Source: Volvariella volvacea V23
Taxonomy: Eukaryota; Basidiomycota; Agaricomycetes; Agaricales; Pluteaceae
Direction of reading: 5' to 3'
DNA: 64,000 nt
Assembly (NCBI GenBank): GCA_000349905.1
Contig: KB722774.1
Span: 1-64,000, forward strand
Shown: positions 7,248 to 59,151 of the stretch, piece after piece
Layout of the letters: each line of letters opens with the position of its first letter
Position numbering within the stretch: position 1 is the stretch's first letter
Notes under the pieces: model-generated
What the model saw: the letters and a program-made list of their open reading frames with translations, nothing else
Told to the model about the DNA's origin: nothing
Databases searched by the model: none
Program-made: the position numbers and the translations under genes

Positions 7248-8099
7248 TACACCTTGTGAATTCGCAGCCTCTCGACGCGGAATTGGTCTTACTGTGAGGT
7301 GCTAGTACGATTTGCTAGGCTGATGGAAGAAGAAAGCTGGTAAACATTCAAACGCTGCCGGCCACGCGCCCTAGACCCACATGAGAGTCACGCGTCACTC
7401 GTATACGCGCGCTTTCCAACTGTTTCATTTCCGATGCTGAGCGCTGAGGACCAACTCGTGCGTATGGGGTTATCAGGTAGCGGGGAGTTGCAATGTCGAT
7501 GGTGTTGTCGTTGAAGGGGAATTACCACACGTGACTCTACGATCCTATACGTTCTCGCTTAAGGATGGGTTCTGACATGGCGCAGAACATGGCAGGAATA
7601 CAGAGACAAAATATGGAGTGCACCGAAAAGGAAAAACAATGGGCGAGTTGCAGATACTTTGCACATGGAAATAGTATACAGCATTGGGGCACGAGGCTGC
7701 ATAACATCCGCGGGGCGGAATTGCTAATGGGGTGGATGCATGAGCATGTCAATTTTGCTTTCAAGAACTCTGCCATTTAGCTTCATTTGTGTAATATTGC
7801 CATCAGCCTGAGTGGTGCTAGCTGCTTCGGTTGACGACAATGCCGAGAGTCTCGTTCCTGGCTCTACTTGCACCCAGCTTTTTTATACGGCATTACAGTG
7901 AAAATCCTGCCTTTGTTATACTGAAGAACGGCACAAAGGAGCTTAGGATGAACTCCCTGTCGCGCGCGAGACGTCCAAAACTTGTCCAAAACGCGCAAAC
8001 GCGAGTGTGACGCGCGTGGCTTGAGAGCGGGTGTCACGGTCACATGACCCAAACGCGGTTTGGATCCCAATTTCAGGGCTGAATTTCAAGGGGGCAACG
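7248..8099. other. Divergent intergenic region between F-box gene and kinesin
   Basis: An 852-bp region upstream of both neighbouring genes. It holds no convincing gene: the ORFs at 7537-7780 on both strands have no recognisable features. It does hold clustered ACGCG motifs near 7990-8057, annotated separately, and an ACGCGT at 7390-7395 nearer the F-box gene. Confidence 0.5.
7991..8057. promoter_or_regulatory. Cluster of ACGCG (MCB-like) motifs upstream of kinesin
   Basis: Five ACGCG/CGCGT cores lie within 67 bp (7991, 7999, 8010, 8013 on the reverse strand, 8053), ending 43 bp before the kinesin ATG. ACGCG is the core of the MluI cell-cycle box bound by MBF in yeasts. A role in cell-cycle timing of this mitotic motor is inference. 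Confidence 0.4.
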
Positions 8100-11097: not shown

Positions 11098-13188
11098 CTA
11101 GATATCACGGTACTTGGCGTTCCATCTCCTGTCCTCCTCGGGCAAATCCAGCTCATAAGGAGCCAGATGCTCAGCGACGCTTGTGAATTCTTTTTGGATC
11201 AAATCGATGTGGTTTTGGGAACGGGGTTTGATGCGGATGGGGCAGAAATCTGGGATGGCGGTGATGCCCTGTAACAGCGCGGTACATTAGTGCATCTAGT
11301 TGTGGAGCGACGAGATGTGTGGAGGATGAACGCACGGGAGAGTGTTTATCAAGGTCTGGGAAGACTTCTTTGCCGGTCTTGGGGTCGATGTGGGGCAGGA
11401 AGTCGAATGCCCATACCCAAAGGGCAAGGTTCATTTCCTATGTAGACTAGAGTGAGCAAACTCGCAACGTATTGGTGAGGATGAGGTGTCTACGTACCAT
11501 CGAGGTCTTGGCGAAAGTAACACCGGGACATACACGACGGCCACCACCGAATAGTAGGTTCGCTTTACGCGCTGGGTCATCTTCGACGTCTGGCCTCACG
11601 CCGAGAGGGTGCTTGAGGAATCGTTCGGGTATGAATTGGTCGGGTCTGTCAAAGTACTTTTCGTCGTGGAAGATACGGCCTACCGGGATAAATTCAGTGA
11701 GATCGATTTCATTTCTAAAGTGAAAATATGGAAACGCACGGAGGTTCATGAAGAGAACTGTGCCTTTGGGGTAGAAATAACCGTCAATAACTTCATCTTG
11801 AACCATCTCGTGGGGAAGACCAAGGTTAGCTACCGGACGGTATCGGAGGACTTCTTCGATGAAGGCATTTAGGTAAGGGAGGTTTGGAATGTCGTCCCAT
11901 CTGGGAGTACGTTGGTTCCCAACTACTCGGTCAATTTCAGCTCGAATCTTCTTTTGTGCTTCAGGGAATGAGACCAGGCAAAGGGCGATGCCTTGAAGAG
12001 TAGCTGAGGTCGTGTCGGATCCTTCGAGTAGTGTGCCACCGATGTTGCTGTGGCCATCCGTTAATTATCAGTCCCAGGAGCTGGAAACGAACTTACGTTA
12101 ATAGTTCTCTTGTCGTAAGTCCCAAGTCCTTGGCATTTTGTACGGCGTCCTCCATGAAACAATCGGCACTCAAACCTCTTGCCAATCGCTTCTCGACCAT
12201 AACCAAAAGTCTTTCATACAATTCTTCGTGTAGCTTGCGGACATGGTTGGCTGTTCGCTTCCAACCTGCCCATCGCTCAGGAATGTATTTGAGGATAGGG
12301 AAGATGTCAACGGGAGGTGCAGTTCCGAATTCGAGAGCGTTCATGAACATCCTTTGGACGTGGAGGAATTCGGCGATATCTTTGGAGCGATAGTTGGTGC
12401 CACGTGAACCGTAGATGACAGCCATTGCAAACGAGGTGGTGTATCGTGGAATGTGTTCATACCAGTTCTAATTCGTTCAAGCGAGCGACGATTCCTCCGT
12501 CAATTTAACTGCCTTGCACAAAATTGGATGTCTAGACTTACCTCTGGATCGTGGCAGAATTCCCACATAAGCTGAACAGCTTCAGCCCTTTGGAGATCCT
12601 TCTTTTTCCTCAAGTTTTCGTTGTTGATACTTTGAGCGGAAGGCTTTCGGAGAATCTTCCATGTTTCTCCGGCTGATGCGGCAAAGATCAGCAAGGTATT
12701 TAGATTCACTTAAAGGCACTTACCAGTGTGGCCAGTCCCAAGGTTCATGTCGTTAGGTGTGATCATGTCTGCAATGGTAGATTTGGGCCGATTGGAGGTA
12801 GACCAACTGTGCTTTTCGAATACTTCTCGAACAGCCGAAGGAGAGTTGAGTACAATGATTGGTAGTTGGAACACCTTCAACGAGAAGATGTCACCATACT
12901 CGCGGGCTATCACAACATTAGGTCGCTATAATTCGCGATTGTTACTTTTGGAAACTCACCCCACTCTGTGAACTTCAAATGTGGTCTTTCGCGCGGGAAG
13001 GTGAGGGCATTGCCAAAGAATGGGAGAGCACGTGGGCCAGGAGGCATACCACGATGTCTCAATCCCGACGCGAAAGCACCATAAACATAGTAGAGTAAAA
13101 GACCTCCACCCGCGAGGACTGCGAGTTGAACAAAGTTGGAATACTCCTTGAATTGAGTCACTGCAAGGTCTAACGAGGGGAGAGTCAT
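11098..13188 (-). CDS. Cytochrome P450 monooxygenase (cluster P450 A)
   Basis: Eight exons (12960-13188, 12724-12906, 12542-12672, 12097-12467, 11740-12047, 11498-11679, 11336-11437, 11098-11268) join in phase to 558 residues. An N-terminal membrane anchor (about residues 18-40) is followed by the proline hinge RGMPPGPRALPFFGNAL. The I-helix has GSDTTSATL, the K-helix ExxR is EVLR in EEVLRYRPV, and the heme ligand motif is FGGGRRVCPG. The product is an ER-anchored heme-thiolate monooxygenase using electrons from cytochrome P450 reductase. It resembles OrdA-like secondary-metabolism P450s and is a paralog of the P450s at 21797 and 26050, with nearly identical exon lengths to the former. Its place beside a TRI5-type terpene synthase suggests oxidation of a terpene scaffold. 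A TATA-like TATATG/TATAAG element lies about 45 bp upstream of the ATG. Confidence 0.92.
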
Positions 13189-14502
13189 TATAGTGGAGAT
13201 TGTATGGGGGCAGCAATCCTCTCTCCAAGAACTTATATGATTCGTTGATCCTCCGCAATGTATATTTCCACGAACCGAGAGGGAAGATTGAGCATGGATA
13301 GTGGGCCGAAGGGTCAAATCGAACTGATTGAGTGCTGTATCAGGCGCGGGTCTTTTGACCCATTTAGCCATAAAATTGATTTTTCCCGACGTACAATAAG
13401 GGATGGGTACGCCTGATGCACACAAGTTCAGTGTAAACAGCGAAGGCGTGAGGGGATCTGGACATTGGATGCCAAGTTGGTATTAGCTGCGGTGATTGAC
13501 TAACGCAAGGCGGACTGCCACCTGTCTTTGAACGCTTTGACGAGGTCAATTTGCCATACGGGAATTAGTGCACAGACGGCCGCATATGTAGCTGGTGCTA
13601 TCTCTCCGATGTTATAGTATCTGGTATCAGTGATGATGGTGGTTTGGTTCGGAACCGATTCCCATTTCTGTTTGTTCTTGCATGTTTGGTCACCACCCCA
13701 TCGTTCTCTTCATCATTTCCCCATGGACCGAGAGAACACGCTCACTTCATCTGCGGAATGGGCAGGCTTGCCAGCTGCTTTGCACGGCAACCGAACAGAC
13801 CAATTTCATTGAATCACCAACCTAGCGGGCTTCGTTCCCACATAGATATCATAGCGCTACTGGCATAATTGGACTCCTCTTAATGAAATTCTCTGATGCG
13901 CTAATCATATACCATTTTTAGATCGTATGATCACCATATGTTGCAGATCCTTCCTCGTACTATCCATTCACGTTTGTATCACCTAACGCCGAATAGTGTC
14001 ATCTATACGCTGCCTGATTGGGTGAAGAGAGGTGCTACACGTCCAATATACACTCTGGTGTGAGTCCCTTTCCCTTTTCTCCTTATGGCATTGCATCCGA
14101 CTCCTACTGTCAGTCAGCGCGAGCATCGTCAATAGAATGAGCTTTTAGTCTCCAAGTTCTTGAATCTGTTATTGCTTACGGGCAAACCATCAACATGGTT
14201 CCCGCAGTACTCTTATTACACGCACAACCCATTCAATAATTGTATTGGATCCGACGACAATGGAATGACACACCGTGTGCGATTCCACCTTACCGGGTCA
14301 CCGTGCGTGGTTATGCGGAGAATTATGCTTCTTTTCAGCCAATAATACTCGAGTTCGATGAATATCGACTAATATTGATCGTTGATGAGTGGCGCAAAGC
14401 CACTCTTCGGTTCAAGGTAATCAAGAAGTCATTGCGACTTAATAGTACCTCGGGTTCCAGCAGAATGCTTGTTCCGTTTTTGCTATCCTAACTTCTACTG
14501 TC
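13189..14502. other. Divergent promoter region between P450 A and P450 B
   Basis: A 1.3-kb region separating two P450 genes transcribed away from each other, so it should hold both promoters. The ORFs at 13364-13868 and 14160-14491 look like chance frames. No repeats were noticed. Confidence 0.45.
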
Positions 14503-16843
14503 ATGCTGAACGTTTCGACGGTCGTTGGTGCAGTGACACTATGGGCAATCTGGAAGTTGTGGTGTCGCATTGTGGTGAAGTCGCCCATGAAAACGCTAGA
14601 TGGCCCGCCGGCGCTATCCTTCGTGACTGGTACGCCGCCCTGTGGATACGGAACATCCTACACTCAAAATTATCTTCCTAGGAAACATCACTCAAATGAA
14701 TGACCCGGATGGTTTGGCTTTCAATAGGATGATAGTAGACAAGTACGGAGGCGCTGCAAAGATCTACGGTTTTCTCGGGGTACGCCGGTTGCTCCCTGAC
14801 ACACGCACCTGAGTGCTTATCTATTTCATGACTGCAGGACGAGCAAATATATTTTTCTGACCCCCTTGCCCTAAGACACATAGTCGTAAAAAACCAGAAC
14901 ATTTTCGATGAAACAAACGTTTTCCTTGAGTGCGAACAATTCGCTATCGAAATTTTAATTTGAACCTCACCTTGAGTCGCCAGGATTAATCGAGTTATGT
15001 TTGGGGACGCGTTAACAGCGGTCAAAGGTCTGTCACCTCAGGCTTCTAACGCCGACGCCTCTTCTTAACCATCTCCTCCAGGCTTCCATCACAAAAAACA
15101 ACGGCGCATCCTGAATCCAGCTTTCGCAGCCTCACATATGCGTGACCTGGTCCCTATTGTATCAAACATAGTTGTTCAGGTAGGCTACCGCGCTGGATTA
15201 AGGGATCATGAAGAAGGCTAAATGACCCTTGGGTAGATGTCTGATCTCATCGAGCGGGCCGTCAGGCGTGGGGAGACAACAGTAAACGCCTTGGACATTA
15301 TGTGGCGCACAGGAATTGAGACCCTAGGCCATGCAGGTCTTGGATATTCTTTCGACGCGCTAAATGAGACGAAGCGCAGCGTATACACAGATTCAGTGAA
15401 AGACATGTTGTAAGTGACAGTTAACTCCGCCCAGCTCGATAAGCACGCTAACTGTCAATAGCCCCACATTAGACAAGATGGGAATACTATTGCTCTTCCT
15501 GCCTCTTGTCTCGCGCCTCGGGTCAGAAGCGTTCAGACAAAGGTTTATCAGGTCCATCCCGTGGCAGAAGCTCAAGGACTGTATTAGGCTCGTGGACATC
15601 ATCGACGACAACGGGAGGAAGGTGTTGTCCAAGGGTCGAGCTGCTCTTGCGCTTGGCGATGACGCCAATTCCCAAAGAATCGGAAAGGGCAAGGACATCA
15701 TGACCCTACTACGTAAGCACTCCACTTCAAAACCTACACTGAATGCTTATCGAGGTGTTGTCATGCCGTAGTAAAGGCTAATGAATTGGCATCTGAGTCT
15801 GATCGTTTACCCGACGCAGAAGTTATTGCCCAAATCAAGTAAGATCTGCTGCTCGCTTGCCACTCTAGATCTGGGACGAGCGTTGGGCTGACTTGCCTGT
15901 AGCTTGCTAATTTTTGCATCTGCGGATACAACGTCCAGCACCATGACCAAAGCAATGGAGCACCTGTCTAGGAATCCTGATGTTCAGGAACGCTTAAGAC
16001 GAGAAATTTTAGATGCGGTTCCAGACATTGGGGCAATGACCTATGATACATTGGAGAACATGCCACTGTTATCTGCAGTAATCAAGGAGACCCTTCGCCT
16101 GTAAGTCATCGGCATCACCTTGCACGCCTACCTAAGTGGCTCAAACTTTTCAGGAATCCTCCTGTTATCAAAATGGAGAGAACGTAAGTTCCTCCACAAG
16201 CCTATATCTTCACAAACGTAACATACTAACGCCACTTGTTAGCGCGACAGAAGATACCGTTGTCCCTCTATATTTCCCGGTGATAGGTACTGATGGGAAA
16301 CCTATTACCGAAGTGCACGTTCGAAAGAATCAAAACGTTATCATTGGGATAGGGAATGTAAACCGCCATAAACGCATTTGGGGCCCTGATGCAGATGAAT
16401 GGAAGCCTGATCGTTGGTTGAAGCCCCTCCCTGAATCCGTTACAGACGCCCATATTCCTGGTATTGTTCCTCACATGTACGTCAAAGTCGGTGGTTATAT
16501 TGGAACGGGTTGACTGAGCGCATCGCTTCTAGTATGTCGTTCTTGGCTGGAGAACGTGCATGCATGTAAGTCTTGGCCCTGCCAGCCAAATCCTAATTTA
16601 CTGACGATGTCATTCAGTGGTTATGCCTTTGCTTTGACGGAAATGAGTAGGTCCCCTTCATGGCTCCAGGTCCGCCGATCTGTCTCACACGACATCACAG
16701 AGGTCATCCTATCGATTTTCATTTCGAGGTTCCACTTCTCCCCCAGCGACAAGCCTGTATCGTGGAAACTTGGAGCTGGAACACAGTACCCTGTGGTTCC
16801 CGGAAAGGGCTCACAGCTCCCACTAGAAGTCGGCCTTGTATAG
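14503..16843 (+). CDS. Cytochrome P450 monooxygenase, second family (cluster P450 B)
   Basis: A strongly split gene with about eleven exons and introns of about 50-60 nt. Exon 1 encodes a membrane anchor followed by KTLDGPPALSFVTG; later exons read NITQMNDPDGLAF, FHHKKQRRILNPAF (helix C region) and FASADTTSS (I-helix oxygen-binding motif, with Ser in place of the usual Gly). They continue with ETLRL (ExxR) split by an intron, NVNRHKRIWGPDADEWKPDRW, and the heme-binding FLAGERACIG. An intron directly after the cysteine loop, and another after ALTEM, must be removed to reach the C-terminus ending LPLEVGLV. The family differs from the three OrdA-like P450s nearby and resembles agaricomycete P450s with the GPP.P.F..GN N-terminus. 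It probably acts on the same pathway by position. All key residues are present, so it appears functional. Confidence 0.85.
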
Positions 16844-19218
16844 AGCACGGAAAGTAGTTCTGTCGTTTAATTTGCTTCATTTAAATATTATCGCCTCCTG
16901 TGATCACGGAAGAGCTGCATACAATACTGGAGCTTGCGAGACGCTGGTCTTATCAAATAATTCCTCTATAAGTGACTTGTAGCATGAATACTTCCAATAG
17001 CATCAGGCATCTTGTTTAATAGAGCGCCCGCAAATAAGGTCACAGGCCCTGCACCTTGTCCTGCACAGTTAGTACTACACCTCGACCCTATCTAATGCGA
17101 CTTTCCCATGGCCACATTAATGTAGATTTACGGTATTATCCGGCGGAGTTGTCGTCGGAGTCCTATTTTTCTTCTTGACCCGTCGCATTCTCGGCTTTTT
17201 CCCAACGCGTAATATATCATGCGCGTCACCCACACCGACACAATGTTACTTAACCAGGACAGCACCGACACCGACATTCCTTATCGTCCACTAGGAACTT
17301 CACAACCAACGCGCCCAGTACATTTTCATCAGTATTCAAGTCCCTTGCACAATCATAAACCTTCTTGTCTTGCCTGCGTCGGGAACACTTAAACTAGTTA
17401 ACGATAGGTCGCAGGGCCTGACCAATCTGAGCTCGCCATCACAATGAACTCGACCGTATTGTCCTTGTATCAAATAACTCGGCTGAAACACTTTCCTTTG
17501 CTTCTCCGTCATTCCTGGGTGTGTTCTCTCATTGTCCCGATTACATGCATTCAACACACCACCTTTCCCTCTTCCACAGGTTCTCACCTTGACCATTCAC
17601 CCCATCAAGCATTATCCGTGCTTCGCAGCACTGTGCTAACCCTGGATCCTGGAGCATTCGTCGGCAGTTTTCCTCAACGAATACTCAGTCTCCTCACCAC
17701 GAAGGTGGCTAACCTTCTGGTTTTGAGCTCTGCTATAGATTTGGATAGACGACTCGGATAGAACCACTTCAGCTTCAATTGCTCAAAAACGAGTTCAGGA
17801 GCGAACCCGGTACCAAGGAGTCACTGGCGCATCAGCGACACGGATTTATTCCAGAGGGTTTGATGCTGTGGATTTCGAACCCGACGAACTCTGTTGGTAG
17901 TTGCTAAAATCCCTTGACGCTCCACACGACGTCGCAAAGGGCCGAAAATTAGGGCTCGTAGGGCAAGTGAAAAGTCGCGTGGGCATTTTGGCTCTGATAG
18001 TATGATGTCATCAATAGTATCGACGCTGCGACCCTCGACGTCGCTGCTTCAGCCTTCTTCTTTGTGATTCAGGTGAGGGTTCTGCTCCAACTTGCCAAAC
18101 ATCCTGCAGGAGCATGCAGCGTTGAGCAGATTTCTACACATAGGCATACCCATTCGTGTGGTAACAGAGTCGCTCACACGCATGCCAAAACAACCCGACT
18201 TCTAGCTATCTAGGCCAACACCTGATGTATATGCCCGGCGTGCCCGGAAGAGCTCAGCAGGTGCGCCTAGTTATGCCTATGTAATCCGGTTACAGTGACT
18301 TACTCCTTGAATATGATAAGCTTTATGCTGGAGGTTCAAATGGTCTCTTGCTCAGAATAATGTGTTTGTAGTTCGTCGTGGTATTTTATTTTCAATCCCG
18401 TTGAATTGATTTCTGACTTGTGGTTTTCACTGATGGATTATTTGGCTTTGGCTGATTACAGGGTGACAATTCGCTGTATTGCGTGAATCGCCTATCCTGA
18501 ATAATTTCAAGTATAGGCCTGTCATAGGGTCTCCATTAAGCAGTTTCACAATATGCTTCGTGACTTTCCTTGTGCATTCCAGCGAGGCTCACCCTTAGAT
18601 GAAAAAGTTTGAGGCCCGCGTATATCCCTTCCTTCAGCGTGTGTTTTCGATCAAAAAATTGTGTGCAACATTCAGGTAGCGGCTAAACCCGTGCACAAAC
18701 ATAGTCTGACTGGCATGTTTTTATCGCACATAATCGTCGACAAAATATAGGTGCACATAGATTAGATGAGGGGACGTATACTTGGCTTACAAACCCATAA
18801 ACTCGAGGCCAGCTCAATTGGTTTGCGGAGGCCAAAGGAGATAGTAGTGATAACATATTTCTCTGCGTAGTATCTTCTGTAGCCGACTATCTGCACGTTG
18901 CAAACCAGTTCCTACTGGAGCGGGATCAACTCTGTTGGACTTCGAGTGGAGAGGGTCGCAAACAATCATTGACTTCTTGATGATCCCCACTAAGAAAGCG
19001 GTAGGGGTAGATGCGTTTGGGATCCTACGCAAGTGATGGCTAACCCTCGCCCTTTGTCACGAGCCGATTGAACCCCTGAAAGTTAATGTCGATTCGGATA
19101 ATCGGGGTGCGATACCTACATGCAAGTAGAGAGGTTTTCTAATTACTTATAGTTGGTTGTAGATGGGTTCCTCCTCAGAACGCTCTTCACTCCTTCCGCT
19201 TGAACTCACCTCATCACT
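16844..19218. other. 2.4-kb gap, no intact gene, possible relic
   Basis: No intact gene could be read. A short plus-strand stretch near 17130-17210 reads as a hydrophobic segment (LSGGVVVGVLFFFLTRRI) with no matching downstream frame. Another near 17860-18050 has coding-like codons broken by stops. Both are compatible with remnants of a lost gene but no family can be named. ORFs at 17336-17761 on both strands look fortuitous. Confidence 0.35.
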
Positions 19219-20380
19219 ATGGTTTTCTCCTGGCTACACACGTTTATCTGGTATGCTGTCTCATACCTATGGCAGGTCATCTACAATATCTTCTCGCCCC
19301 CCAAGGTGTGTCGTGGTCCTCCTAAGCATTGCTTTCGATACTGACGATGTAATTCAGCCCGACCTCGTGCAAACACGGGATACCATCGTTTCCTTCCTAA
19401 AACGCTGTAACCTTCCGTTCCCTGTGGTTCCATACGACAAGGAGTTTGAAGAGCAATGCAATGAGTTTTGTCGACGCCGTGGGTACCCTTTGAAGGGGAA
19501 GCACGGAATTGGCGGGCCATTCATGGTATGCGGCGTGGTCATGGCAAGAAGCGCATACGGGCACCTCCCCAACATCGATAACCAGATCTACGTCTCCGTT
19601 TACACCGCCTTCCTCGTCTATCTGGATGACGTCTTCAATAAGGACATCACTTTAGTCCGAGACTTCAACGAGAAGTTCATCGCCAACAAGCCGCAGGCCA
19701 ACAAAACTTTGGACGGATTTGCACATATGCTGCGGGAAGATACGCCAAGGTTGTTCCACAAGGTCGTCTCCAATATCATCATCACATCGACCTTGAATCT
19801 GGTCACAGCGTTGCTGCTGGAGAACGAGACGCAAGGCATGAAGGTCAGTACTTACCAAGGAGACCTCCAAATTAGCAAGCTAACGCAGACCATAGCTCCA
19901 ACATAGTGCCGTAGGGTACCCTACTTTCTCTCGCGTGATGTCCGGAGCATCAGAGGCCTACGCTCTCTTCTCTTTCCCTAAGGAGCTTCCTTTGCAATCC
20001 TTTATTCAAGCGTTGCCCGAGATGATGATCTACATCAACAACGGAAAGTGAGCACACGAGAGTTTTCGAGCATTTGGACTCAGCTAATTATTCCGCCATC
20101 AAGTGATATCCTATCATTCTACAAAGAAGATAGCGACGGCGAAACTGTCAATCGACCATCATGGTTGGCGGAGTGCCATCAAGTTAGCAAGAATAAAGCC
20201 CTCAAGATGCTCGAGGACGCCGCGGTTGAAGCGCACACCCGCATACTCCAGACATTGAAACCGCACCAGGGTGCATATGAAGCTTATAGCGCGTTCAGTA
20301 AAGGCTATATTGGCTTCCACTCCGGCCTACAAAGGTACAGGCTGCATGAATTGAACCTCGGAGAGAAAGGAAATGCGTAA
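19219..20380 (+). CDS. TRI5-type sesquiterpene synthase (trichodiene synthase family)
   Basis: Four exons (19219-19305, 19358-19843, 19896-20047, 20104-20380) give 333 residues. Exon 1 encodes a hydrophobic N-terminus (MVFSWLHTFIWYAVSYLWQV) not expected in a soluble cyclase. The catalytic domain has an aspartate-rich motif YLDDVFNKD, a complete Mg2+-binding NSE motif NDILSFYKE (N-D-x-x-S-x-x-x-E) created across intron 3, and a C-terminal RYRLHEL matching the diphosphate-sensing Arg-Tyr of the family. Class I terpene synthases of this type ionise farnesyl diphosphate and cyclise it. Fungal TRI5 makes trichodiene, but basidiomycete homologs give varied products, so the product is not assigned. 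The last acceptor (aag) is weak but restores the NSE motif. It sits centrally among four P450s. A longer ORF starting at 19163 lacks alignment support. Confidence 0.88.
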
Positions 20381-21796
20381 TCGCCTACGAAAATCATCCA
20401 CGGTTTACACCACCCGCCATCGTGCGGGAGCAGCATGCTGTTTTGTACACTGTCTTTTTTTTAGATAGATATCATCAGATGTAATTTTGATTGCCATTCC
20501 GCAATGCATTGGTCACTTCCCCCAACATTTGAAGACCTGCGGGTCTCTGGAATCTGGAACTTTAGATTGATTGACTGTTACCCGAGTGATAGCGATGAAT
20601 GGACATCAAAGAAGCGAAGGTCCTAAACAAATTGATTTGTCCTTGTTTTGTATTCCACGCAACAACCATGCACAAACAAAAAGACTCGAAATTCCTACTC
20701 TTTCTTGGCCTCGTGTTTGGAGATTAAAGCCAGTTTGAACTTAATCTCCGGACAAGAAGGAATAGGAGCTATCTCGTGTCTGCAAGTGTAAAAAATCCTT
20801 TCTTATATTGACTTTTGCCCAGGAAAAAACTGGTAGGCTTGTTGGCGCATTACAGTAATGCTAGTAGTATTCACTCCTAAATTCACATCTGTCATCGCAG
20901 GGGACACTTGCTTTAAGACATCAAATAATGGAGGAGGTCGTTATCAGTGAACTTTTTACTTTCGGCCTTCGCCAGTGGATCAATTCACCAAACGTCATGG
21001 CCAACTTTCCAAAAAGACCTTTACCCCAAAGGGCATCAGAAATATGGGAATTTGATGTGACTGACAACCATTTGGGGTGACACGAAGACATCATACAGTA
21101 AGGTGCTATTGCACTGAATGACACCCTTGAGACGAGGTGGTTGACCGAATGAAGTCATACTACGTAAGCATGCCACGTGTCCATCCTGAAGTGGGTGACC
21201 CCAAAGAGTGGTAGGTGTTCGCACTAAGTTTGTGGCCCCTGAACTTACTCGAGCGACGCGGAAGGGCAGATAAATCGACACAAGAGCGGTAGCACATGGT
21301 GAATGCACTGCGGATTCGATTGTGTTGCGATCATCTACCGGAGATAAGTTGACAGCGCCAATCCAACCCCATATATTGATCTTCTTTTAGCGCTCGTCGA
21401 CCATACATCACACCAACCTGAGTTATCTAAACTGACTTAGCAGTGTCCATCATCCTCTTAGTGATCTATGAGCGGGGGCGGGCACCATTCTGCAGGTGCA
21501 CGTTCCCTACGCCAAATGGCTGGTTAACCCCCTTCGAATATAGACACTCGTTGAGCGTGCAGGGGGTGCGATTCGGTTTGATTTGCAGTTCTAATCAGAT
21601 GCGAGGAACAAATGACCTACCCGCCGTGATGGCCGCCGTTCATGCTCCTTAGTGGTGTCCTTTGAATATCGATTTCTTAATTGCGTACAATTCCCGTCTC
21701 ACAAATCCTTTGCGTTACTCGCAACAGCTTTTCAGGCTCCAGACACCATGTGTCTACTATAAAGTTCTTCAAACAGCTCCGCGCCTCATTCACGAC
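20381..21796. other. Intergenic upstream of P450 C
   Basis: A 1.4-kb gap containing the promoter of the next P450. The ORFs at 20921-21308 and 21443-21652 have no recognisable features. Nothing else was identified apart from the TATA element listed separately. Confidence 0.45.
21758..21763 (+). promoter_or_regulatory. TATA box of P450 C
   Basis: TATAAA ending 33 bp before the ATG at 21797. It supports that ATG over the in-frame ATG at 21662, which lies upstream of the element. Confidence 0.5.
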
Positions 21797-23781
21797 ATGT
21801 CAACTCCTATACTGGACCTAGCATCGTATCCCCCTCCCGCACAGGCAGCCATCGTTCTCGGTGTGGGTGTGGTAGCTTACTATGGGTACAAAATCTTCAC
21901 CATGGGGCTACGACAAAGGGGCCTGCCTCCAGGTCCTCCCGCGCTGCCGATAATTGGCAACTTGCTTGTCTTTCCTCGCGCCCTGCCTCACTTTCAATTC
22001 ACAGAATGGGGTGAGTAAATACCTTTGGCTATACTTTCTATTTTACTGAGATCAGACAGCGAGAGAGTATGGCGACGTATTCTCCCTCAAGGTGTTGGGT
22101 CAAACAATGATTGTTCTAAATTCGCCGAACGTGGTCAGAGAGATCTTCGAGAGGAGGAGTTTGGCAAGTTGCAACCGTCCCAAGTCTACCATTGCCGATA
22201 TTATTACGCCCAACAACTTGAACCTTGGAACTGGTCGCTTTGGTACGCATCTAGCCTAAACCAACGTTTCTTTCCTTGGACTAATCAGAGATTTCAGCAA
22301 ACGAGGCATGGAAGGCTCTTAGAAAGGCGTCTGCTCAATGTTTGAGCAACGAAAATTTGAGGAAGAAGCGTGACTTCCAGAAGGCTGAGGCAACTCAGAT
22401 GATGTTTGACTTCTACAATGATCCCGATGTGAGTTTCCATGATCTAATACTCTCTTTCGCCAATCTAAATTATATCAGAACTGGTACCACCACATCTCGC
22501 GATTCACAACTTCATACGCCATGGGTCTCGTCTATGGTCTCCGAAATACCAGTTTCAAATCAAAGGACGTCTCAGACTTCTTGACCGCTCAACGACTCTT
22601 CATGGAAGCGCTCGAATTCGGAACTATGCCCCCCGTCGATCTCATTCCCATCCTGAAATACGTTCCAGAATACTTTGCGGGGTGGAAGAGACAAGCTAAC
22701 TACATCAAGTCACTTCATGACGAGTTGTATGGTCGCTTGGTCGATAGGGTTGAAGAACGAATGAAGAAGGGGTTGAGTATTGAATCATTCATGGAAGAAG
22801 CCATTACCAAGCAGCAACAATGGGGATTCAAGACCAGGGACTACTTGACGTGAGCTCTGGCCACCTTTTGGGTTTGAACCAGTCATTTTCTAACTGCTGC
22901 AACCACCAGAAACTTCGGTGGTACTCTCTTGGAAGGATCAGACACCTCGTCCGCAACTCTTCAATACATCGTCATGTGCTTGGTTGCATACCCTGAAAAG
23001 CAGAAGAAGGCTCAAGAAGAAGTTGATCGTGTTGTTGGTTCACAGAGAGCTCCAACATGGGACGACATTCCCAACCTTCCTTATGTTCGGGCCCTCATCG
23101 AAGAAGTTCAGCGCTTCCGCCCTGTCGCAAACCTCGGCCTCCCGCACGAGATGGTCCGCGATGAAATTGTCGACGGTCACCTCTACCCCAAGGATGCTGT
23201 TCTCTGGATGAACTTGTGTACGTTTCGCCTCTTTAGTGATAGTCCTCAAAGGTTGATTTCGAACAGACATGATCTTCCACGACGAGAGGTACTTTGAGAA
23301 CCCGCACGACTTTGTCCCTGAACGATTCCTGCAACATCCTCTTGGCGTACGACCCGATATCGAAGACGACCCAGGACGTCGCGCCAACATGCTCTTCGGC
23401 GGCGGTCGACGCGTCTGCCCTGGCATCACATTCGCAAAGACGTCCATGGAGATGAACACCGTCAACTGGCTCTGGGCGTTCGATTTCCTTCCTGACGTTG
23501 ATCCCAAGACTGGAAAAGAGATTTATCCTTCCGTCAACGACTACGCATCTGTATGTGCATCATGCGCTTACGTTCGTTCCCGCTGCTGACAGGTTGATAA
23601 ACAGGGCATCACTGCTACACCCCAGCCATTCAAGTGCCGCATCAAGCCCCGTTCTGCTGCCAAGGCAGACATGATCCAAAAGGAATTTTCTCAAGCGGCG
23701 GAGCACCTCATTCCTTTCGAGCTGGACCTTTCTAAGGAGGATAAGGAATTCAATGCCAAGTACCGTGATGTGCAGCACTAG
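21797..23781 (+). CDS. Cytochrome P450 monooxygenase (cluster P450 C)
   Basis: Seven exons (21797-22010, 22060-22242, 22298-22428, 22479-22849, 22910-23217, 23267-23550, 23605-23781) join to 555 residues. A membrane anchor near residues 15-32 is followed by RQRGLPPGPPALPIIGN. The I-helix has GSDTSSATL, the ExxR motif is EVQR in EEVQRFRPV, and the heme loop is FGGGRRVCPG. It is the closest paralog of P450 A: exons 2-5 have exactly the same lengths (183, 131, 371, 308 nt). Exon 6 here (284 nt) equals the sum of exons 6 and 7 there (182 + 102), so one intron differs by clean loss or gain. Expected to oxidise a terpenoid intermediate in the cluster. The start at 21797 is chosen by TATA position and alignment with paralog A. 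Confidence 0.93.
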
Positions 23782-24042
23782 ATACCCACTACATACGTAA
23801 TTACCCTAAACACATGCATGCTCCCCTACCTCGTTCCAGACTTAGCCTATAAGTTTTTGTTTAGGTTTCAATTTTGGGAATTTATCGGGTTTGTGTTTTC
23901 TGCGGCTATTGTCCACTATTTTTCCGAAGAGCTTGCGATGATTTTAAGGATTTGGTACAATGGGTTGCGGAGGATTTGACTGCTGTGGGATGTATATCTA
24001 AGCACTCTCCTGCAGAGATCTCACGCACAACTCTAAATTTTG

Positions 24043-24065
24043 CAATACTGTTGCGAACAGTATTG
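24043..24065. terminator. Perfect hairpin downstream of P450 C
   Basis: CAATACTGTT and its exact reverse complement AACAGTATTG are separated by GCG, giving a 10-bp stem with a 3-nt loop, 262 bp after the stop of P450 C. It could be a 3' processing or structural element; function unknown. Confidence 0.3.
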
Positions 24066-24364
24066 ATATGGCTATTTCTCCTCTCGTGACTCCAGAAGCG
24101 AGCTGCATTTAATAAATATAGATGAATTGGAAAAGATACATAAAAGCGACCTACCAGGGGTATAGTAAGTACCAGACTACTATGGCAACTGTCGAGGTTG
24201 GTCCTGAAGGCAGAGGAGATAGTACGTAGGAAGGATAAACAATCTTTAGTAGTGGAGGGATGTATCAGGGGAATAAAAGGATGTGAATAAGGTGGGTTGT
24301 CCAGGAAGTGCAAATGTTACAGCACTCGTCGGAAATTGGAGTCAATGAGGGCACTAGCATTACC

Positions 24365-25110
24365 TCCCACAAGGTTCGAAGGCGACCGCGTAGGCCGGGG
24401 GATAGACATTGTGTTTGTTGAGGAAGCGTGTCGACAGGCTCGAGGCTGATATTGTGGAGCGGGACTTCTATATACGGAGCATGGCGCAGTGGGCACAGCC
24501 AAAAACGGGTCGTTGTTCAACACAGCCATTTATCTGCTGATAGAAGGCGCGGTTAAGCCGGGTGAGCTCCCAGGTTGTAATGTGATGTTGATGTCGAGGA
24601 ATGAAGATAAGCTGAAATCAACACCTGGAAAGGGCAAGATGGCGCTTCTCCAAACACTAGGCTTCAGACTTGTGGGAAGCTATCCTCGCAAGGGCGCGAC
24701 GTCGTCACTGCCAGGGTCCCGCTCCTGCTCGAAGCCGGCGGAATCGACCCTTCTAGGGTACGAACCAGGCGGTGGAGCGCCTTCCCATAAGTCTGAAGCC
24801 TGTTTGAAGAAGCGCCATCGGTCCTTTTTCGGGTGTTGAGAACGGGCCATCTTTCAGCTTATCTTCATTCCTCGACATCAACACCCCATTGCAGCCTGGG
24901 AGCTCACCGGATCCCGATTGAAATGCGCCTTCTACTGACAAATCAATAACTGGATTGGACGACGACCCGTTTTTGACCGTGCCCACTGCGCCATGTCCCG
25001 TATGTAGAAGTCCCACTCCACGCCATCAACCTCGAACCTATCTGCGTACTTCCTCAACAAACACGACGTCTACACTCCAGCTTACACGGTCGCCTTTGAG
25101 CCTTATGGGA
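24365..25110. repeat. Imperfect inverted repeat (arms about 315-330 bp)
   Basis: The left arm (about 24365-24679) matches the reverse complement of the right arm (about 24781-25110) with small indels and a 101-bp spacer. Landmarks found in both arms are ATGGCGCAGTGGGCAC, AAAAACGGGTCG, GATGTCGAGGAATGAAGATA and AAGGCGACCG. Both arms translate to related peptides (MSRNEDKLK; FLNKH.VY.PAY.VAFEP), so this may be a duplicated, inverted gene fragment. The first peptide loosely recalls a short-chain dehydrogenase segment, but this is too weak for assignment. No terminal features of a transposon were identified. Confidence 0.7.
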
Positions 25111-26049
25111 ACGAATCGTTTATGACTCGGACACATCAACGCACAGGTGATGCGGACGAGTTGATTCAAAGGCGTTCACACCATGAAGTCTTCCGACAAG
25201 TAAAGGGAAAGCAAGAACTTGCGCCATGATCACGTCGAAGGCACCTCAGTGCGGTCGAACCCTTTACCTGTAGCTCCACTCCAATCATAGCAAATTTGCG
25301 TTGACTTTTTAGACTGTATGAGTGGTTATCTACCTGCGTACCCCTTTTGTGATGTCATAGTGCAGCTTCTTTCTTATCATTAGTTTTATGGCGCGGGTGA
25401 GTGTACAGAGTAGAGTAGAAATCGCGGCAAATCCCAGGAGGTTTATAGTGGTGTGCGAATTAACTAAGACGTAAAATGCTTAATGGCTGTGGACCTCTCT
25501 CCAAGCTGGAGTCGGGTGATTGTCCTCTACGCCTCCTAAAAATCGATATTAATATGAATATCTCAAGTTGTTCTCACTTACTGGCGATAAGCGAGGCAAC
25601 AGATCGTTATATCCATTTGGCCCACTTTTTCACGAGCGCCCATCACCATCATCCGCAACCCCATCTCAAAATAACCGCATAAGTCAATGTCAGCGGAATC
25701 AACACGCGAATGGGTGTGCCGGCGTAGATGAAGATTGGAACGGTTCGGTCTGCGCCGCGCACCAGCGCAAAGGAAAAACTGCAACCGCCAAGATGTGCAA
25801 AGTCTCTTTTATCTCGGGGATACTCTAACTGGTACGCATACTATAGTACCGACCCCGCACTCCCCATCTTATTCTACACGGAGATATTTCGACATCATGG
25901 CCTGGCATATCCAATGCGGATGAACACATGTCAAGACACACCCATTAAATTAACCAAGACCAAAAAAAAATACAAGCGTAACAAGCACGATGATCCAGAT
26001 TGGACGAGACTCTTCTAGCCACTATCACAAAACCCCAATATCCGAGTCA
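25111..26049. other. Intergenic, no intact gene
   Basis: Remainder of the gap between the inverted repeat and P450 D. A short open stretch just outside the right arm (25040-25230) continues the arm's peptide frame (EPYGNESFMTRTHQRTGDAD) before a stop. It suggests that the repeat derives from a coding fragment. An A-rich run lies at 25964-25972. Confidence 0.4.
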
Positions 26050-28354
26050 CTAATTCAGACTCGCAGCAACAGATGCCCGCAGAGTGCGGATGTACTCCTC
26101 GTCAGCCTTGGACAGGTTAATCTCATACGGCGCGAGATGAACCGCTTGAGCGAGGAACTCTCTCTTGATGATGTTAACCTTCTCTTCCGACCTCGGTGTG
26201 ATCGTGCACTTGAACGGAAGCGGGGTTGCGTTCACGCCCTAAATGTGGCAACAACAACAATAAATACGCGAATCGGTTAATAAGCGTCGCCGTTGCGCTA
26301 TGACTACCGCTGAAGCAGGAGCAGACGCACCTCGGTGTACGCCCATATATCCGGCTGCACGATGCCCTTGGTGACGGGATCCCTTGCGGGCGTAAAGTTG
26401 AATGCCCAAATGAAGTTTGCCGCATTGATTTCCTGTCAAAAAGACGTGTATAGAACAGAACAGAGAGTCAGCCGAACGTGATGATCGCATCAGCCATCTC
26501 CTGTCAAACCACCACGCCAGCACAGCAACCACGTCGCACTCGTCATCGTGGGCGAAAGAAGCCCGAACAAGTGGCCCATCCAGGGACAGGCAAGTGGACC
26601 CATTACTGGCGAGATAAGAAGGATGGCAATGACAAGACAAAAACTTACAATGCCACCGCGCCCTAATTTGACTCCAGGGCAAACGCGCCGGCCTGCGCCG
26701 AACAGCATGTTGTCTCTCCGAGCCGGGTCGTCGGGGACGTCGGTGCGGACGCCGAGGGGGTGTTTGAGGTAGCGTTCTGGTTTGAATACTTCTGGTTCGT
26801 CAAAGTATCTTGGGTCGTGGAAGATGGCCCCTGGGGGGGTTGAGAGTCAGGATTGACGAAGAAGGGTGGAGTTTGGCTTACAGAGGTTCATGAAGAGTGC
26901 AGAGTCTTTGGGGAAGAGCATTCCGTTTATCTAACGATTGAGTCAGCGATAATCTAAGAAGTACGGGAAATGCTTACCACTTCGTCTTTGGCCATGGCAT
27001 GGGGGATGGCCAAGGGACCCACAGGCCGGAAGCGGAAAGACTAGCAAAGCGAACGTGAGTTGATGCAAAGCACATGAACGCAGACTACCTACCTCTTGCA
27101 CCAGCGCACGAAGATACGGTAGATCATCAAGATCCTCCCACGTCGGCGTCCTATGGGTGCCCACGACCGCGTCCATCTCCTCCTGAGCGCGTTTCTGCAC
27201 CTCGGGATACGCGACCAAGAGAAGAATGATCCCTTGGAGAATGCCAGAAGACGTGTCGGAGCCTTCGAGTAACGTCCCACCAAGGTTCCTGAACGCCAAA
27301 TCAGCCGCTGGACCTGAACCGATCGTCCCACACGCACCTCAGCATCGAGTCTGACAAGCCCCATTGCTTCTGATTCTTATACGCCTCCTCCATAAACGAC
27401 CCGTTTTCGACGCCACCATCGACCCTCTTCCTCACCATACTGACCAAATGGCCAAACAGCTCCTCCTGCCTACGCTTAACATCCAGCACTTGCTGCTTCC
27501 AACCGGCCCACTTGTCAGGCACCCAGTTTAGGACGGGAAAGATATCGACCGGCGGCAGCTTGCCCATTTCCAGGACGTACATAAAGTCCAGCTGGACTTG
27601 GGTGAAGGTTTTGGCTTCGTAGCATGAGGAGCGGGGTGCGCGGTGGCCGTAGATGATGGCGAGGAAGAACGAGGTGGTCAGTCGGGATATGTCGTCGTAG
27701 AAGCCCTATTCACCCGCTCTGTTGAGTACAATTCATAAAGGTCGGCGAGTGGGCTTACCTCTGGATTGAGGACCATGTCGAGCATGAGGTGTGTAGCTTC
27801 GGCGCGCTGTGCGGGTCGGTATCGTTCGAGGTTGTCGGGCTTGAGCATCATCATTGCTGCTTTTCGTAGAGTCTTCCATGTTTCATCGGCTAGAGGTGTG
27901 ATTTAATCCAAATAGCCTATGAATATAGAGGATCTACGCACCATATCGTGCAGTGCCAATGTTTTCGTTATTAGGGACGATAATATCCGCAATGATACTC
28001 GCCGGTCGATTCGAACTCGTACTCTTGCGATCAATAACCTCGAATACAGCAGTCGGCGAATTGAGAACGATGATTGTCTGCGACATGATCTTCAGGGAGA
28101 ATATGTCGCCATACTCCCTCGCTACAATACGTCAGCACCTTGGTTACACGCAGGAGGGGGGTAGACCCACCCCATTCTGTAAATCGATAATGAGGCCATT
28201 TCTTTGGGAAGTCTAGAAGGTTGCCGATAATTGGTCTTCGTGGTGGACCAGGAGGCAGCATCTTGTTGGCTTTCTTTGTGTGAGCCACAAGGGCGACGTA
28301 GGTGCCTGATCCCAGGAGGAACAGCCAGACGAGGACGACTGCGATGGCTGGCAT
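26050..28354 (-). CDS. Cytochrome P450 monooxygenase (cluster P450 D)
   Basis: A multi-exon P450 of the same family as P450s A and C. The first exons are 28171-28354, 27942-28121, 27759-27889 (131 nt, identical in length to A and C), 27338-27705, then 27288 onward. Features include a membrane anchor, KMLPPGPPRRPIIGNLLDFP, an I-helix with GSDTSSGIL, and ESFR (ExxR) formed across an extra intron. HPLGVRTDV and the heme loop FGAGRRVCPG follow. The C-terminus reads ATPLPFKCTITPRSEEKVN and ends at TAG 26050-26052. The start MPAIAVVLVW is preferred over the upstream in-frame ATG at 28402, because a TATAAA at 28424-28429 would place that ATG before the expected transcript start. It is more diverged from A and C than they are from each other. 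Confidence 0.9.
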
Positions 28355-29354
28355 GGCGATTGGAGGAGAGGAGGACAGGGCAATAAGGAAATTATGGCGC
28401 ATATACCCAACAAAGCTTCTTAGTTTATAGATTTCTCCTTGCCTCACGCGAGCTTGGATTCCGCTCGCCGATGAGGGATTGATTGGTTTGCGATCTACGC
28501 GAACTAGACAACCAAATGGGGTAAGATAACTCCTGCCATGGTCGACTGTGTGCCGTTCGAGTTCGTTCCGGTGGAATGGTCAACGCATTATCCCCACATG
28601 CATCCATCCGGGGATTGAAGGACAGCGGAGTCTCGAGCCTCGCTTGGTTTTCCTACGCCAACGGTCGCGTGCTGAAGGGCTGCGGGGAGCGTTGAGGGAG
28701 GCCGACTGGCCCTGACATAGCTTTTACGGAGAGCGCCCTGTCGAAGGATGGCGTCAATGTTATTACCCAAGGGAGAGCCCCTTTCGGCGGCGCCGAGGAT
28801 TACGACGACGAAAGCTATGGAGTTGGCGCGCCCATCGGGGATTGCATTATTGGCGAGCAGATTTGCGCGACAAGCGCGCAGGCAGCGTATTACGCACATT
28901 GGTGGCGTCAGCTGCTGTGGCCACGCTGTCGCCTTCCTAAAGCGGAATCCCACGAGGGTCTTAGTCAGCGCTCGACTGACAGTTTCTCTCATGTCAGATC
29001 CTTCACGTCAGCAGCTTGGGCACGAAAATGCCTGGAAATTGTCCAGTGGGTCCCCAACTCCCTGGGCACCACAGCAGCACGCTCCAAGGGGCCTGCACAT
29101 CACCCATTCCGGAAAATTGCGCTTTCAAATGCGAAAAACAAATATGCGATGATCTTCCAGAGCAGATCTGCATTTATCAGCCACATGCACCCTGGACGCA
29201 AACATGCTTACGCCTCGTCGTGCTGTCATCGACAATTCGAAGCCTTCATGACGACTAAGCTGCACCCTGCTGTAGAAATAAAAGCTTCGACGAGAAGCAC
29301 CATGTCGCCGTCAAACCCCCAACCAAGCCTCGTCGTCTCCAACACACAGCTCCA
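28355..29354. other. Divergent intergenic region
   Basis: A 1-kb region between two divergently transcribed genes, holding the promoters of P450 D (TATAAA on the minus strand at 28424-28429) and of the FAD oxidoreductase. ORFs on both strands at 28588-29152 overlap each other and show no domain. Confidence 0.45.
28424..28429 (-). promoter_or_regulatory. TATA box of P450 D
   Basis: TATAAA on the minus strand, 70 bp upstream of the ATG at 28354 but only 22 bp from the alternative ATG at 28402. It therefore favours the downstream start. Confidence 0.4.
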
Positions 29355-30842
29355 ATGTCCGCCACAAAACAAAACGTCGTCGTCGTCGGCGGTGGAGGTG
29401 CCGGTGCACCGATCGCCAGCCTGCTCTCGCAAAAACTGGACGCGAGCAAGTACAACCTCGTCCTCGTCACCTCGCGTCCATACTTTGTCCACCTGGTGGG
29501 CACCATCCGGATGGTCGTCTCCAGCGAAGAGGCGCTGGAGGACCGCATCCTGATCCCGTACGACAAGAACTTTGCCAACGGCAACGGCCAGGTCGTCGTT
29601 GGCACCGTCGTGTCTATCGAAGAGTCCAAGTCCTCCAAGGGTGGTCATGTCGTTCTCGACAACGGCAAGACAATCGACTACTCTGTCCTCGTTTTGACGC
29701 CTGGCAGCACATGGGAGGGTCCTCTGAACCTCCCCAACACCAAGGCCGAGAACAAGGAATGGACCCACAAGTGGAGAGCCCAGTTCGCTCAATCCGACGA
29801 CATCGTCCTCGTTGGTGGTGGTGCAGTCGGCATCGGTACGCTCTCTCATCCTACTCTCTTCAACAGCACCAACCTCATCACTCTCCAGAATACGCCGGCG
29901 AAATCAAGGAGATATGGCCCGTAAGTCCCATATTCCCACACCACCACCTCGTCATCTCATCCGTTTATAGAACAAGCGCGTGACCATCGTGCACGGCGAC
30001 AAGGAGCTCCTTAACCCCACCTACCCTGACAAATGGCGCAAGGACGTCCACCGCCGCGTCGCCGAACGCGGCGTCAACCTCGTCCTCGGCGAATACGTCG
30101 ACGACTTTTCCACCCACAACGGCGCGCTCAGGACGCGCAGCGGCAAGACCATCCCCGCAGACCTCGTCGTACGTGCCCCTCCTACAGCTATCTCTATGCT
30201 TCCTTTCTCAATAACGACCATCAACTTTTGGTGGACAGGTCCCAGCGAGAGGCCCCAGACCCAACACGGCCTTCATCGCCACGCTGGGCAACGACGTCCT
30301 CACGCCCCAGGGCTTCGTCAAAGTCAAGCCCACGCTTCAGCTCGCGAGCCACCCGCGGATCTTTGCCGCCGGCGACGTGATCGACTGGAAGGAGCAAAAG
30401 CAGGTCGGCAAGTACCCCGCGCACGCCGCGGTCGTGGCGGACAACGTCGTGAGCGTGTTGAACGACGGGCAGCCGGGCAAGGTGTACAAGGGTTCGTATG
30501 AGCTGATTGTCATCACGATTGGAAAGGTGGGTAGTGCCTTTTTTTTCTTTTGCTACATTTGGGTTGTGCGACGTGGCGTGGCACTCTCGCGAGCGTGCGC
30601 TGTTGATGCCATCCCACGGGAGGGATGACAGTTCCACAATGCATCTCTTTATCCATCCACGCGAACAGTTGAATTGAACGCTAACCACCCACTCCTCTTC
30701 TTTCTTCTTCATCCAGACCCGTGGCGCAGCGTACTTCGGAGTCCTGTGGGGCCTCATCTTCGGAAACTGGGTCTCCTCGCTCATCAAGTCGAAAGATCTG
30801 ATGATCGGCATGGCGCGCAGCCGTCTAGGCTACAAGGATTAA
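29355..30842 (+). CDS. FAD-dependent NAD(P)H oxidoreductase, AIF/FSP1-like
   Basis: Five exons (29355-29835, 29889-29920, 29971-30168, 30239-30526, 30717-30842) give 374 residues. The N-terminal FAD-binding Rossmann fold carries NVVVVGGGGAGAPIA (GxGxxG). A second dinucleotide fold at about residue 155 carries DIVLVGGGAVGIEYAGEI, for NAD(P)H. RIFAAGDVIDW is the conserved flavin-contacting segment near residue 280. This order is the pyridine-nucleotide disulphide-oxidoreductase layout of AIF-like, AMID/FSP1 and type II NADH dehydrogenase proteins. The C-terminus has a hydrophobic patch (YFGVLWGLIFGNWVSSLI) that could associate with membrane. It may act in redox or quinone metabolism, or have been recruited to the adjacent terpenoid cluster; the sequence alone does not decide. 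All cofactor motifs look intact. Confidence 0.88.
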
Positions 30843-56638: not shown

Positions 56639-57200
56639 GATATTTTTTGATTGATGAATTTGTGGCAGCCGTAAAGAAAAAGAATTGAAACCAGCAGGAG
56701 GAGTTGGTTGAAAAAGAGAGATAGCACTGAAGTGGGTCAAGATCTGGTGCTGTATGCAAGCTTGAGGTGCGCTTTTAAAAGTGCGTCCTTTGAGGCTCAC
56801 CTGCAGTTGCGTGTGACCTTAAACCCTTTGTCCTTATATCCCTTTGACTCAACTTTCAGCTATACGACATTATGCCATGGTTCTGGTAACCAGTGAGAAT
56901 TAACAACCCCTTTCATCCTTAGCTGTATTTCATATATCCACCTTTTGATTTGACTTGATACTAAATGTGCAATGCATTGATTTGAATTGCTAGCACTACC
57001 ACGCATGCAGGCAGAGCAAAAGTGTTGAAACTCGGTTGCAACAGGAGCGGAATCAAATGCGTCAAACTCGGAATACAAGTGCATCCCATTGTTACCCATA
57101 TGTACACTCAATACTCAACAAATCATTTACACGTCTACTGCTCTTCCAAGTCGTGCTCGAGCTCTAGCGAGCCCTAAATTTTGACATCAAGGTTGGCTAC
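56639..57200. other. Spacer between F-box genes
   Basis: Holds the upstream region of the 54.9-kb F-box gene and the decayed 3' end of the next copy. No separate gene recognised. Confidence 0.4.
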
Positions 57201-58713: not shown

Positions 58714-59151
58714 AAGAAGTAAAATTTATTCTTTAATCCATCGGATCAGTCTATGAAAGAGCAGAAGGGGCCCAAGGTAGAAAACGCGCCCAAAGATTTC
58801 ATACACGAGCTTGGATATCTTGAATGATACTAGTGGCTTCTCACTGACACCGTAGCAAATGCGATTAGCGGGAGGGCGCATAAATCCGAACAAATAAAAT
58901 CTCTACCTAGTGGCGACATTTGAAATTCATGACAAATTTTATGAGCTCGCATTTGATGTGTGTTGACGGACACGACCGGTGGCTGCCCTTTGATCATGAG
59001 GTGATGATGCAACGAGAACCATACAAAGAGTCATGTGTCGATGAAACGCTAACAAGGACTGAGAGTACTGAGCAGCCTAGCATAACGCTGTTATCAGGAA
59101 GTATTGCCAGTTGATAGGTTATTATAATTAAAAACGACAATGAAAACCTAA
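58714..59151. other. Intergenic, nothing recognised
   Basis: A 438-bp spacer between two F-box copies on the same strand, holding the promoter of the 57.2-kb copy and the 3' region of the next gene. No other feature seen. Confidence 0.4.

Follow-up and report, generated by a model that had tools for sequence, protein, structure and literature searches.

A Candidate Sesquiterpenoid Gene Cluster Around a TRI5-Type Terpene Synthase in Volvariella volvacea

Genes of the Locus

The analyzed window is a stretch of 64,000 nucleotides from contig KB722774.1 of Volvariella volvacea V23. A block of six genes was found in this window, encoding a TRI5-type terpene synthase, four cytochromes P450 (P450-A, P450-B, P450-C, and P450-D), and an FAD oxidoreductase. 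All six genes lie where the original prediction had placed them; their gene models are open, with GT-AG introns, and are separated by intergenic gaps of 1.0-2.4 kb. The models of the synthase and of the four P450s are identical to five deposited proteins of V. volvacea WC 439. The four P450 genes are intact and located within 9 kb of the synthase gene, on both sides of it.

The left boundary of the block is a kinesin gene (8025..10634, plus strand, ends approximate), whose exons match PF00225 (E 1e-42) and PF16796 (E 8.9e-16). The right-hand neighbor is an APE2-like exonuclease gene (35081..36895, minus strand), matching PF03372 just above and PF06839 just below the cut-off. The block had been predicted to lie between a kinesin and F-box genes; the kinesin was found, while the F-box label was not confirmed, five long ORFs among the outer genes having no Pfam match. 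No Rfam match at gathering scores was found within the window. A 746-bp palindrome in the interval between P450-C and P450-D was considered as a repeated mobile element and rejected, being present in a single copy in the genome at E<=1e-3.

Cytochromes P450

All four P450s belong to Pfam family PF00067. P450-A (11098..13188, minus strand; 558 aa, 8 exons, E 1e-81; P0069, AX16_005826) is a C-type paralogue of P450-C (21797..23781, plus strand; 555 aa, 7 exons, E 1.6e-72; P0068, AX16_005842), and these two proteins are sisters in the P450 tree. P450-D (26050..28354, minus strand; 547 aa, 10 exons, E 3.9e-70; P0086, AX16_005820) belongs to a distinct D-type subclade with support of 100/99. Pairwise identities are 63% for A/C, 51% for A/D, and 53% for C/D. 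P450-B (14503..16843, plus strand; 538 aa, 14 exons, E 4.1e-57; P0188, AX16_005851) is only 22-26% identical to these three over 190-239 residues, as calculated with its model before a one-intron correction. Thus, the P450s represent two families, A/C/D and B, in agreement with the original prediction. A genome search found no other locus comparable to the A/C/D family. In the NCBIfam search, P450-C and P450-B gave P450 matches only, far below the cut-off, and the synthase gave no match.

The density of P450 genes at the locus is high: 4 genes were found against 0.058 expected per 20 kb (for a 20-kb stretch taken at random, Poisson P 4.6e-7). The background for this estimate was 103 loci in 35.39 Mb, compiled from 107 hits and 19 more picked from other searches, and these counts are lower bounds. 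For comparison, P450s were counted within 10 kb of 13 other terpene-synthase loci in this genome: one locus has a single P450 and the other 12 have none, again as lower bounds. Three weak TRI5-like matches were observed on contig C26 of the genome.

TRI5-Type Terpene Synthase

The core gene of the locus (19219..20380, plus strand; 4 exons) encodes a class I terpene synthase of 333 aa with a match to the Pfam family TRI5 (PF06330; E 2.6e-18, 66.5 bits against a curated cut-off of 25.2). The predicted NSE motif is complete (N242/S246/E250). These three residues and the RY pair (R319-Y320) are invariant in 18 of 18 aligned sequences and conserved at at least 90% in 45. A full NSE motif was found in 55 of the 67 listed synthase rows; the remainder are fragments or variants.

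The Asp-rich motif is DDVFNKD rather than DDxx(D/E). Among the 67 listed rows, 43 (the present synthase and some fragments included) have DD but neither known pattern, 12 have [DN]Dxx[DE], 10 have DDxxxE, and 2 have no DD. By sequence comparison, DDVFNKD is a subfamily variant of the Asp-rich motif. Because this motif lies outside both [DN]Dxx[DE] and DDxxxE, the synthase activity is not certain.

The predicted fold is the all-helical class I one, closest to SydA, longiborneol synthase, and trichodiene synthase. By sequence and fold together, the nearest solved relatives are longiborneol synthase CLM1 (PDB 8h4p) and SydA (8yzx), with 21-28% identity, ahead of trichodiene synthase. An N-terminal membrane anchor was considered and rejected: the helix at residues 2-25 (pLDDT about 74-83) has only a moderate hydropathy of 1.16. 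An N-terminal hydropathy above 1.2 was found in only 3 of the 27 scoreable rows among the 67.

Linkage of the Genes in Other Fungi

In 21 other species, the matches listed include relatives of both the synthase and P450-C. These relatives share a contig in 13 of the species, against 0.79 expected, and have no common contig in 8. Contigs were taken as the same if their lengths were equal within one species; some of them are megabases long, and a common contig is not equivalent to adjacency. Rows entered in the count were 53 of 67 for the synthase, 63 of the best 120 of 399 for P450-C, and 10 of 67 for P450-B; the rows omitted were metagenome rows or, as judged by eye, rows of species without a partner. 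The linked species include two ascomycetes, one of them with a truncated synthase record. Only one of three synthases is linked in Plicaturopsis and only two of three in I. gibba, and the linked I. gibba synthase P0036 lacks the first N of the NSE motif. In Collybia nuda, a contig of 41.8 kb carries the synthase and both P450 subtypes, C-type and D-type.

The core module was found in Agaricales, Boletales, Gomphales, and Amylocorticiales, as well as in a few ascomycetes. The linkage of the synthase with the A/C/D family in 13 of 21 species gives good support to the predicted terpenoid biosynthetic cluster around the TRI5-type synthase, and synteny in relatives, proposed as a check, recurs at the level of contigs; the genes may also be adjacent in some of these genomes. 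For P450-B, 2 of 7 other species have a relative on the same contig as the synthase (tail P 0.009), and linkage in these two species makes P450-B a probable member of the cluster.

Origin of the Ascomycete Copies

The P450 tree was built from 48 of the best 120 of 399 rows and the first synthase tree from 52 of 67 rows. Holding the 26 basidiomycete C-type P450 rows together was rejected (p-AU 0.00045), in a test whose groups were defined post hoc, with knowledge of the tree. For the synthase, basidiomycete monophyly was not rejected when 31 ingroup rows were constrained to one group (p-AU 0.10). A second synthase test with 27 rows gave 0.00017, a result that is not clean: four basidiomycete rows were omitted, and in the unconstrained tree one of them, Exidia, falls within the group. 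A grouping of the three ascomycete synthases was also not rejected (0.61; 36 rows used). The first synthase tree has a weakly supported backbone, where two long branches meet.

The Macrophomina synthase record and the two from Colletotrichum (218, 199, and 209 aa) end at ...INNGK. This end corresponds to the start of the third intron in the V. volvacea gene, which leaves these records without the last exon, through either annotation or loss; the 209-aa record of C. sojae stops ahead of the NSE motif. For the Xylariales P450 row, the matches listed include no partner synthase.

That the ascomycete copies have a cross-phylum origin is supported by the P450 tree, and not by the synthase tree alone. 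The module was probably acquired by ascomycetes via horizontal transfer. A more specific scenario is put forward tentatively, at slightly less than even weight. Under it, a terpenoid module consisting of the TRI5-type synthase with the non-canonical Asp motif and a C-type and/or D-type P450 would have remained linked in four mushroom-forming orders. A donor lineage close to Fistulina/Dentipellis would have transferred the whole module to ascomycetes (Byssothecium and Colletotrichum; the synthase alone in Macrophomina, Diaporthe, and Xylariaceae), where it would make a related sesquiterpenoid.

Proposed Pathway and Alternative Explanations

With good confidence, the locus is interpreted as a sesquiterpenoid cluster, the core of which, the synthase and the two P450 subtypes C and D, forms an old linked module; it very probably encodes a real natural-product pathway. 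In this pathway, the substrate of the synthase, farnesyl diphosphate or possibly geranyl diphosphate, would be ionized at the DD/NSE metal site. Cyclization would follow, most likely by a bridged or bisabolyl-type route like those of characterized TRI5-like enzymes. P450-C and P450-D, as subtypes of one family, may successively oxidize the hydrocarbon. P450-A, the local C-type duplicate, could add or divert a step, and P450-B, from the other family, probably acts later as a tailoring enzyme.

The sixth gene of the block (29355..30842, plus strand; 374 aa, 5 exons, Pyr_redox_2 E 1.5e-35) encodes an FAD oxidoreductase whose best PDB matches are FSP1/AIFM2. FSP1-type enzymes reduce quinones, and quinones are found among the lagopodins; with the gene only 1.0 kb from P450-D, the four P450s and the oxidoreductase could form one five-enzyme tailoring set, in which the latter acts on a quinone or alcohol intermediate. 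This is considered unlikely, since two close paralogues of the gene, with 59-75% identity per exon, are located on other contigs (C11 and C35). Because of these paralogues and its FSP1-type appearance, the gene is probably only a neighbor and was rejected as a core gene. Thus, the predicted oxidoreductase is present, and its assignment to the pathway was not upheld.

Many mushroom terpene synthases produce unmodified volatiles. Together with the duplication of P450-A and P450-C and the 8 species lacking linkage, this speaks for a chance neighborhood of tandem P450 duplicates beside a stand-alone synthase releasing a volatile hydrocarbon that needs no tailoring. Against it stand the excess of linked species over expectation, the absence of another comparable A/C/D locus from the genome, the Collybia nuda contig, and correlated divergence, which together make it improbable. 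The Pfam family of the synthase suggests a pathway of trichothecene type, in which the hydrocarbon would be trichodiene; this is the least probable of the alternatives. Trichodiene synthase is only a distant relative, while longiborneol synthase and SydA are nearer, and for this reason the earlier caution against assuming a trichodiene-derived product was right. In the trichothecene (TRI) cluster, the partners are TRI101-, TRI12-, and TRI6-type genes.

Comparison With Known Systems

Basidiomycete TRI5-type enzymes had been described in the original prediction as little characterized, which is an overstatement. Among 517 mined TRI5-like synthases, 305 are from basidiomycetes (PMC11122449), and 25 of 172 characterized mushroom synthases belong to PF06330 (PMC10608071). 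There is also a precedent in the lagopodin cluster of Coprinopsis cinerea, which, according to PMC8594250, consists of a synthase (cop6) and two product-oxidizing P450s (cox1 and cox2); the synthase is given as C1,6-type in PMC9501842. Like the present locus, it is a mushroom cluster with P450s alongside a synthase. It has two P450s, whereas three of one family and one of another are found here, a comparison in which Cop6 and the Cox proteins are known by description. No row from Coprinopsis cinerea was found among the 67 synthase relatives.

Trichodiene synthase-like enzymes have been classified into TDTS families (PMC11122449) and as clade 4 (PMC10210940), with 79 published families; clade 4 contains 1154 sequences from 233 basidiomycete genomes (PMC10210940). 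The present synthase resembles this group, in which basidiomycete members are common, in PF06330 membership, the NSE motif, and the class I fold (predicted here). Its DDVFNKD motif would not pass the filter of PMC10210940, which requires (D/N)Dxx(D/E) or DDxxxE. Mushroom linalool synthases were rejected as nearest kin, the words trichodiene, Tri5, and Volvariella being absent from the main text of PMC7890063 in a word search. In the titles and abstract openings of the literature searched, nothing was found on the module or on terpene synthases of V. volvacea; the gene may stand in a table.

Implications

Strict DDxxD filters used in surveys could miss such synthases, and the Asp-motif variant may be the explanation. 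The recurrence of the core enzymes on a shared contig, in numerous mushrooms and two ascomycetes, defines a testable pathway family, and a product obtained from the V. volvacea genes would indicate the product class for the whole family. If the transfer is true, it would represent a multi-gene terpenoid module crossing between phyla.

Gene Content of the Locus

The analyzed genome comprises 35.39 Mb in 54 contigs, and the window covers bases 1–64,000 of contig C39, which is 180,475 bp long in the genome sequence vs. 179,223 bp in the protein collection. The TRI5-type synthase (19219–20380, +), P450-A (11098–13188, -), P450-B (14503–16843, +), P450-C (21797–23781, +), and P450-D (26050–28354, -) are identical in every residue to AX16_005825, AX16_005826, AX16_005851, AX16_005842, and AX16_005820 of Volvariella volvacea WC 439, respectively. 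All six genes of the block, including the FAD oxidoreductase gene (29355–30842, +), have open frames and GT-AG introns. The intervals are 0.46 kb from the kinesin gene to P450-A, 1.3 kb from P450-A to P450-B, 2.4 kb to the synthase, 1.4 kb to P450-C, 2.3 kb to P450-D, and 1.0 kb to the FAD gene. The FAD oxidoreductase was originally predicted to be a cluster enzyme. It resembles FSP1/AIFM2 and has two paralogues elsewhere, on contigs C11 and C35 (59–75% per exon), and is thus counted as what it quite probably is, a neighbour of the cluster.

P450-C and P450-D are separated by a 746-bp imperfect palindrome (24365–25110), with 73% identity to its own reverse complement and arms 77–95% complementary. 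A genome-wide search at E ≤ 1e-3 turned up no further copy. This element could be a source of hairpin RNA or an old inverted duplication.

Other genes were also found in the window. A piece of a GH6 cellobiohydrolase-like gene (43043–43435) matches solved cellobiohydrolases at E 3e-15, and a further piece, judged by eye, is probably located at 41835–42269; neither has a Pfam match individually. In the APE2-like protein (35081–36895, -), the endonuclease/exonuclease/phosphatase domain is barely above the cut-off and the C-terminal GRF zinc ribbon barely below it. Several long minus-strand ORFs at 54953–60774 and 5538–7301 resemble one another and F-box/LRR genes by eye. The four compared with Pfam had no match; they are possibly a local gene family.

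Distribution of P450s in the Genome

As predicted, the flanking P450s belong to two families: P450-A, -C, and -D are 51–63% identical, and P450-B, with cousins on other contigs (25–51% per piece), is apart. The genome search with P450-C, in which only the best candidates were scored, yielded 14 matches of at least 64 bits, all at the window locus. Outside it, the best match scores 63.5 bits, with 32% identity across 154 residues; identity in short off-locus pieces is up to 49%. Thus, judging by sequence, the A/C/D family is read as confined to this locus in V. volvacea. The tree of 48 P450 relatives resolves two clades: the C type (99/96), where P450-C and P450-A form a sister pair (100/99), and the D type (100/99).

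In total, at least 103 P450 loci were found in the genome, merged from 107 matches and 19 picked from two further searches. Four are located within 10 kb of the window synthase. A further 13 terpene-synthase loci were counted, 10 of them detected with PF19086 and 3 weakly TRI5-like; 12 have no counted P450 within 10 kb and one has a single P450. The three TRI5-like matches, which are distant (23–39% per exon), lie close together on contig C26 at ~231, ~242, and ~261 kb, with no counted P450 loci within 10 kb. Densely packed P450 matches on C25 (116–123 kb) and C43 (9–94 kb) are possible tandem arrays or other clusters.

Linkage in Other Species

Relatives of the synthase and of a P450 found in one species on contigs of identical size, as given by the protein search, were counted as sharing a contig. 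Among the matches listed, P450-C relatives were linked to synthase relatives in 13 of 21 other species. For P450s placed randomly in 45-Mb genomes, 0.79 species would be expected (tail 5.8e-17); for 25-Mb genomes, 1.40 (tail 1.0e-13). Linkage was found in Plicaturopsis crispa, Infundibulicybe gibba (two loci), Collybia nuda, Crucibulum laeve, Gautieria, Phlebopus FC_14, Mycena latifolia, M. rosella, M. capillaripes, M. citricolor, Pleurotus eryngii, and the ascomycetes Byssothecium circinans (a dothideomycete) and Colletotrichum sojae. The unlinked species are Collybiopsis confluens, Favolaschia, Fistulina, Gymnopus androsaceus, Hymenopellis, Mycena floridula, M. polygramma, and Tetrapyrgos. 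Among the linked mushrooms are members of Agaricales, Boletales, Gomphales, and Amylocorticiales (checked for Collybia, Phlebopus, Gautieria, and Plicaturopsis).

Both C and D types are located on the synthase contig in V. volvacea, C. nuda (41,768 bp), and Phlebopus; the four linked Mycena species have the D type there. P450-B was linked in 2 of 7 species, I. gibba and M. polygramma (expected 0.16, tail 0.009). The 415,254-bp contig of I. gibba carries the synthase, P450-C, and P450-B kinds together.

Ascomycete Copies

In two synthase trees, the ascomycete rows, except a distant Trichoderma row, cluster with Fistulina and Sphaerobolus (99/97 and 99/95). In the P450 tree, they join Fistulina and Dentipellis (100/100), nested in the C-type clade, with the D-type clade outside. 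Monophyly of all 26 basidiomycete C-type P450 rows was rejected (p-AU 0.00045), whereas monophyly of the basidiomycetes was not rejected by the synthase on its own (p-AU 0.10). In Byssothecium, the synthase record is complete at 340 aa and contains the NSE motif; the Colletotrichum and Macrophomina records end at the position of V. volvacea intron 3. Thus, transfer of the synthase and P450 pair across phyla is likely, not proven, and we infer its direction.

Relation to Known Clusters

One survey reports 517 mined TRI5-like synthases, 305 of them basidiomycete, and clusters of the active enzymes that include tailoring enzymes, P450s among them (PMC11122449). Two other papers describe PF06330 in 25 of 172 characterised mushroom synthases (PMC10608071) and the lagopodin cluster, in which one synthase is accompanied by two P450s (PMC8594250). 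Thus, this kind of cluster is already known. The word "Volvariella" is absent from the main texts of PMC9501842, PMC10608071, PMC10210940, and PMC8594250, and no publication on this synthase–P450 cluster family or its product was found by searching titles and abstract beginnings, a search that most subscription papers fall outside. The terpenoid cluster originally predicted around the TRI5-type synthase is very probably real, with particulars that are new, and its conserved core very probably consists of the synthase and two P450 subtypes.
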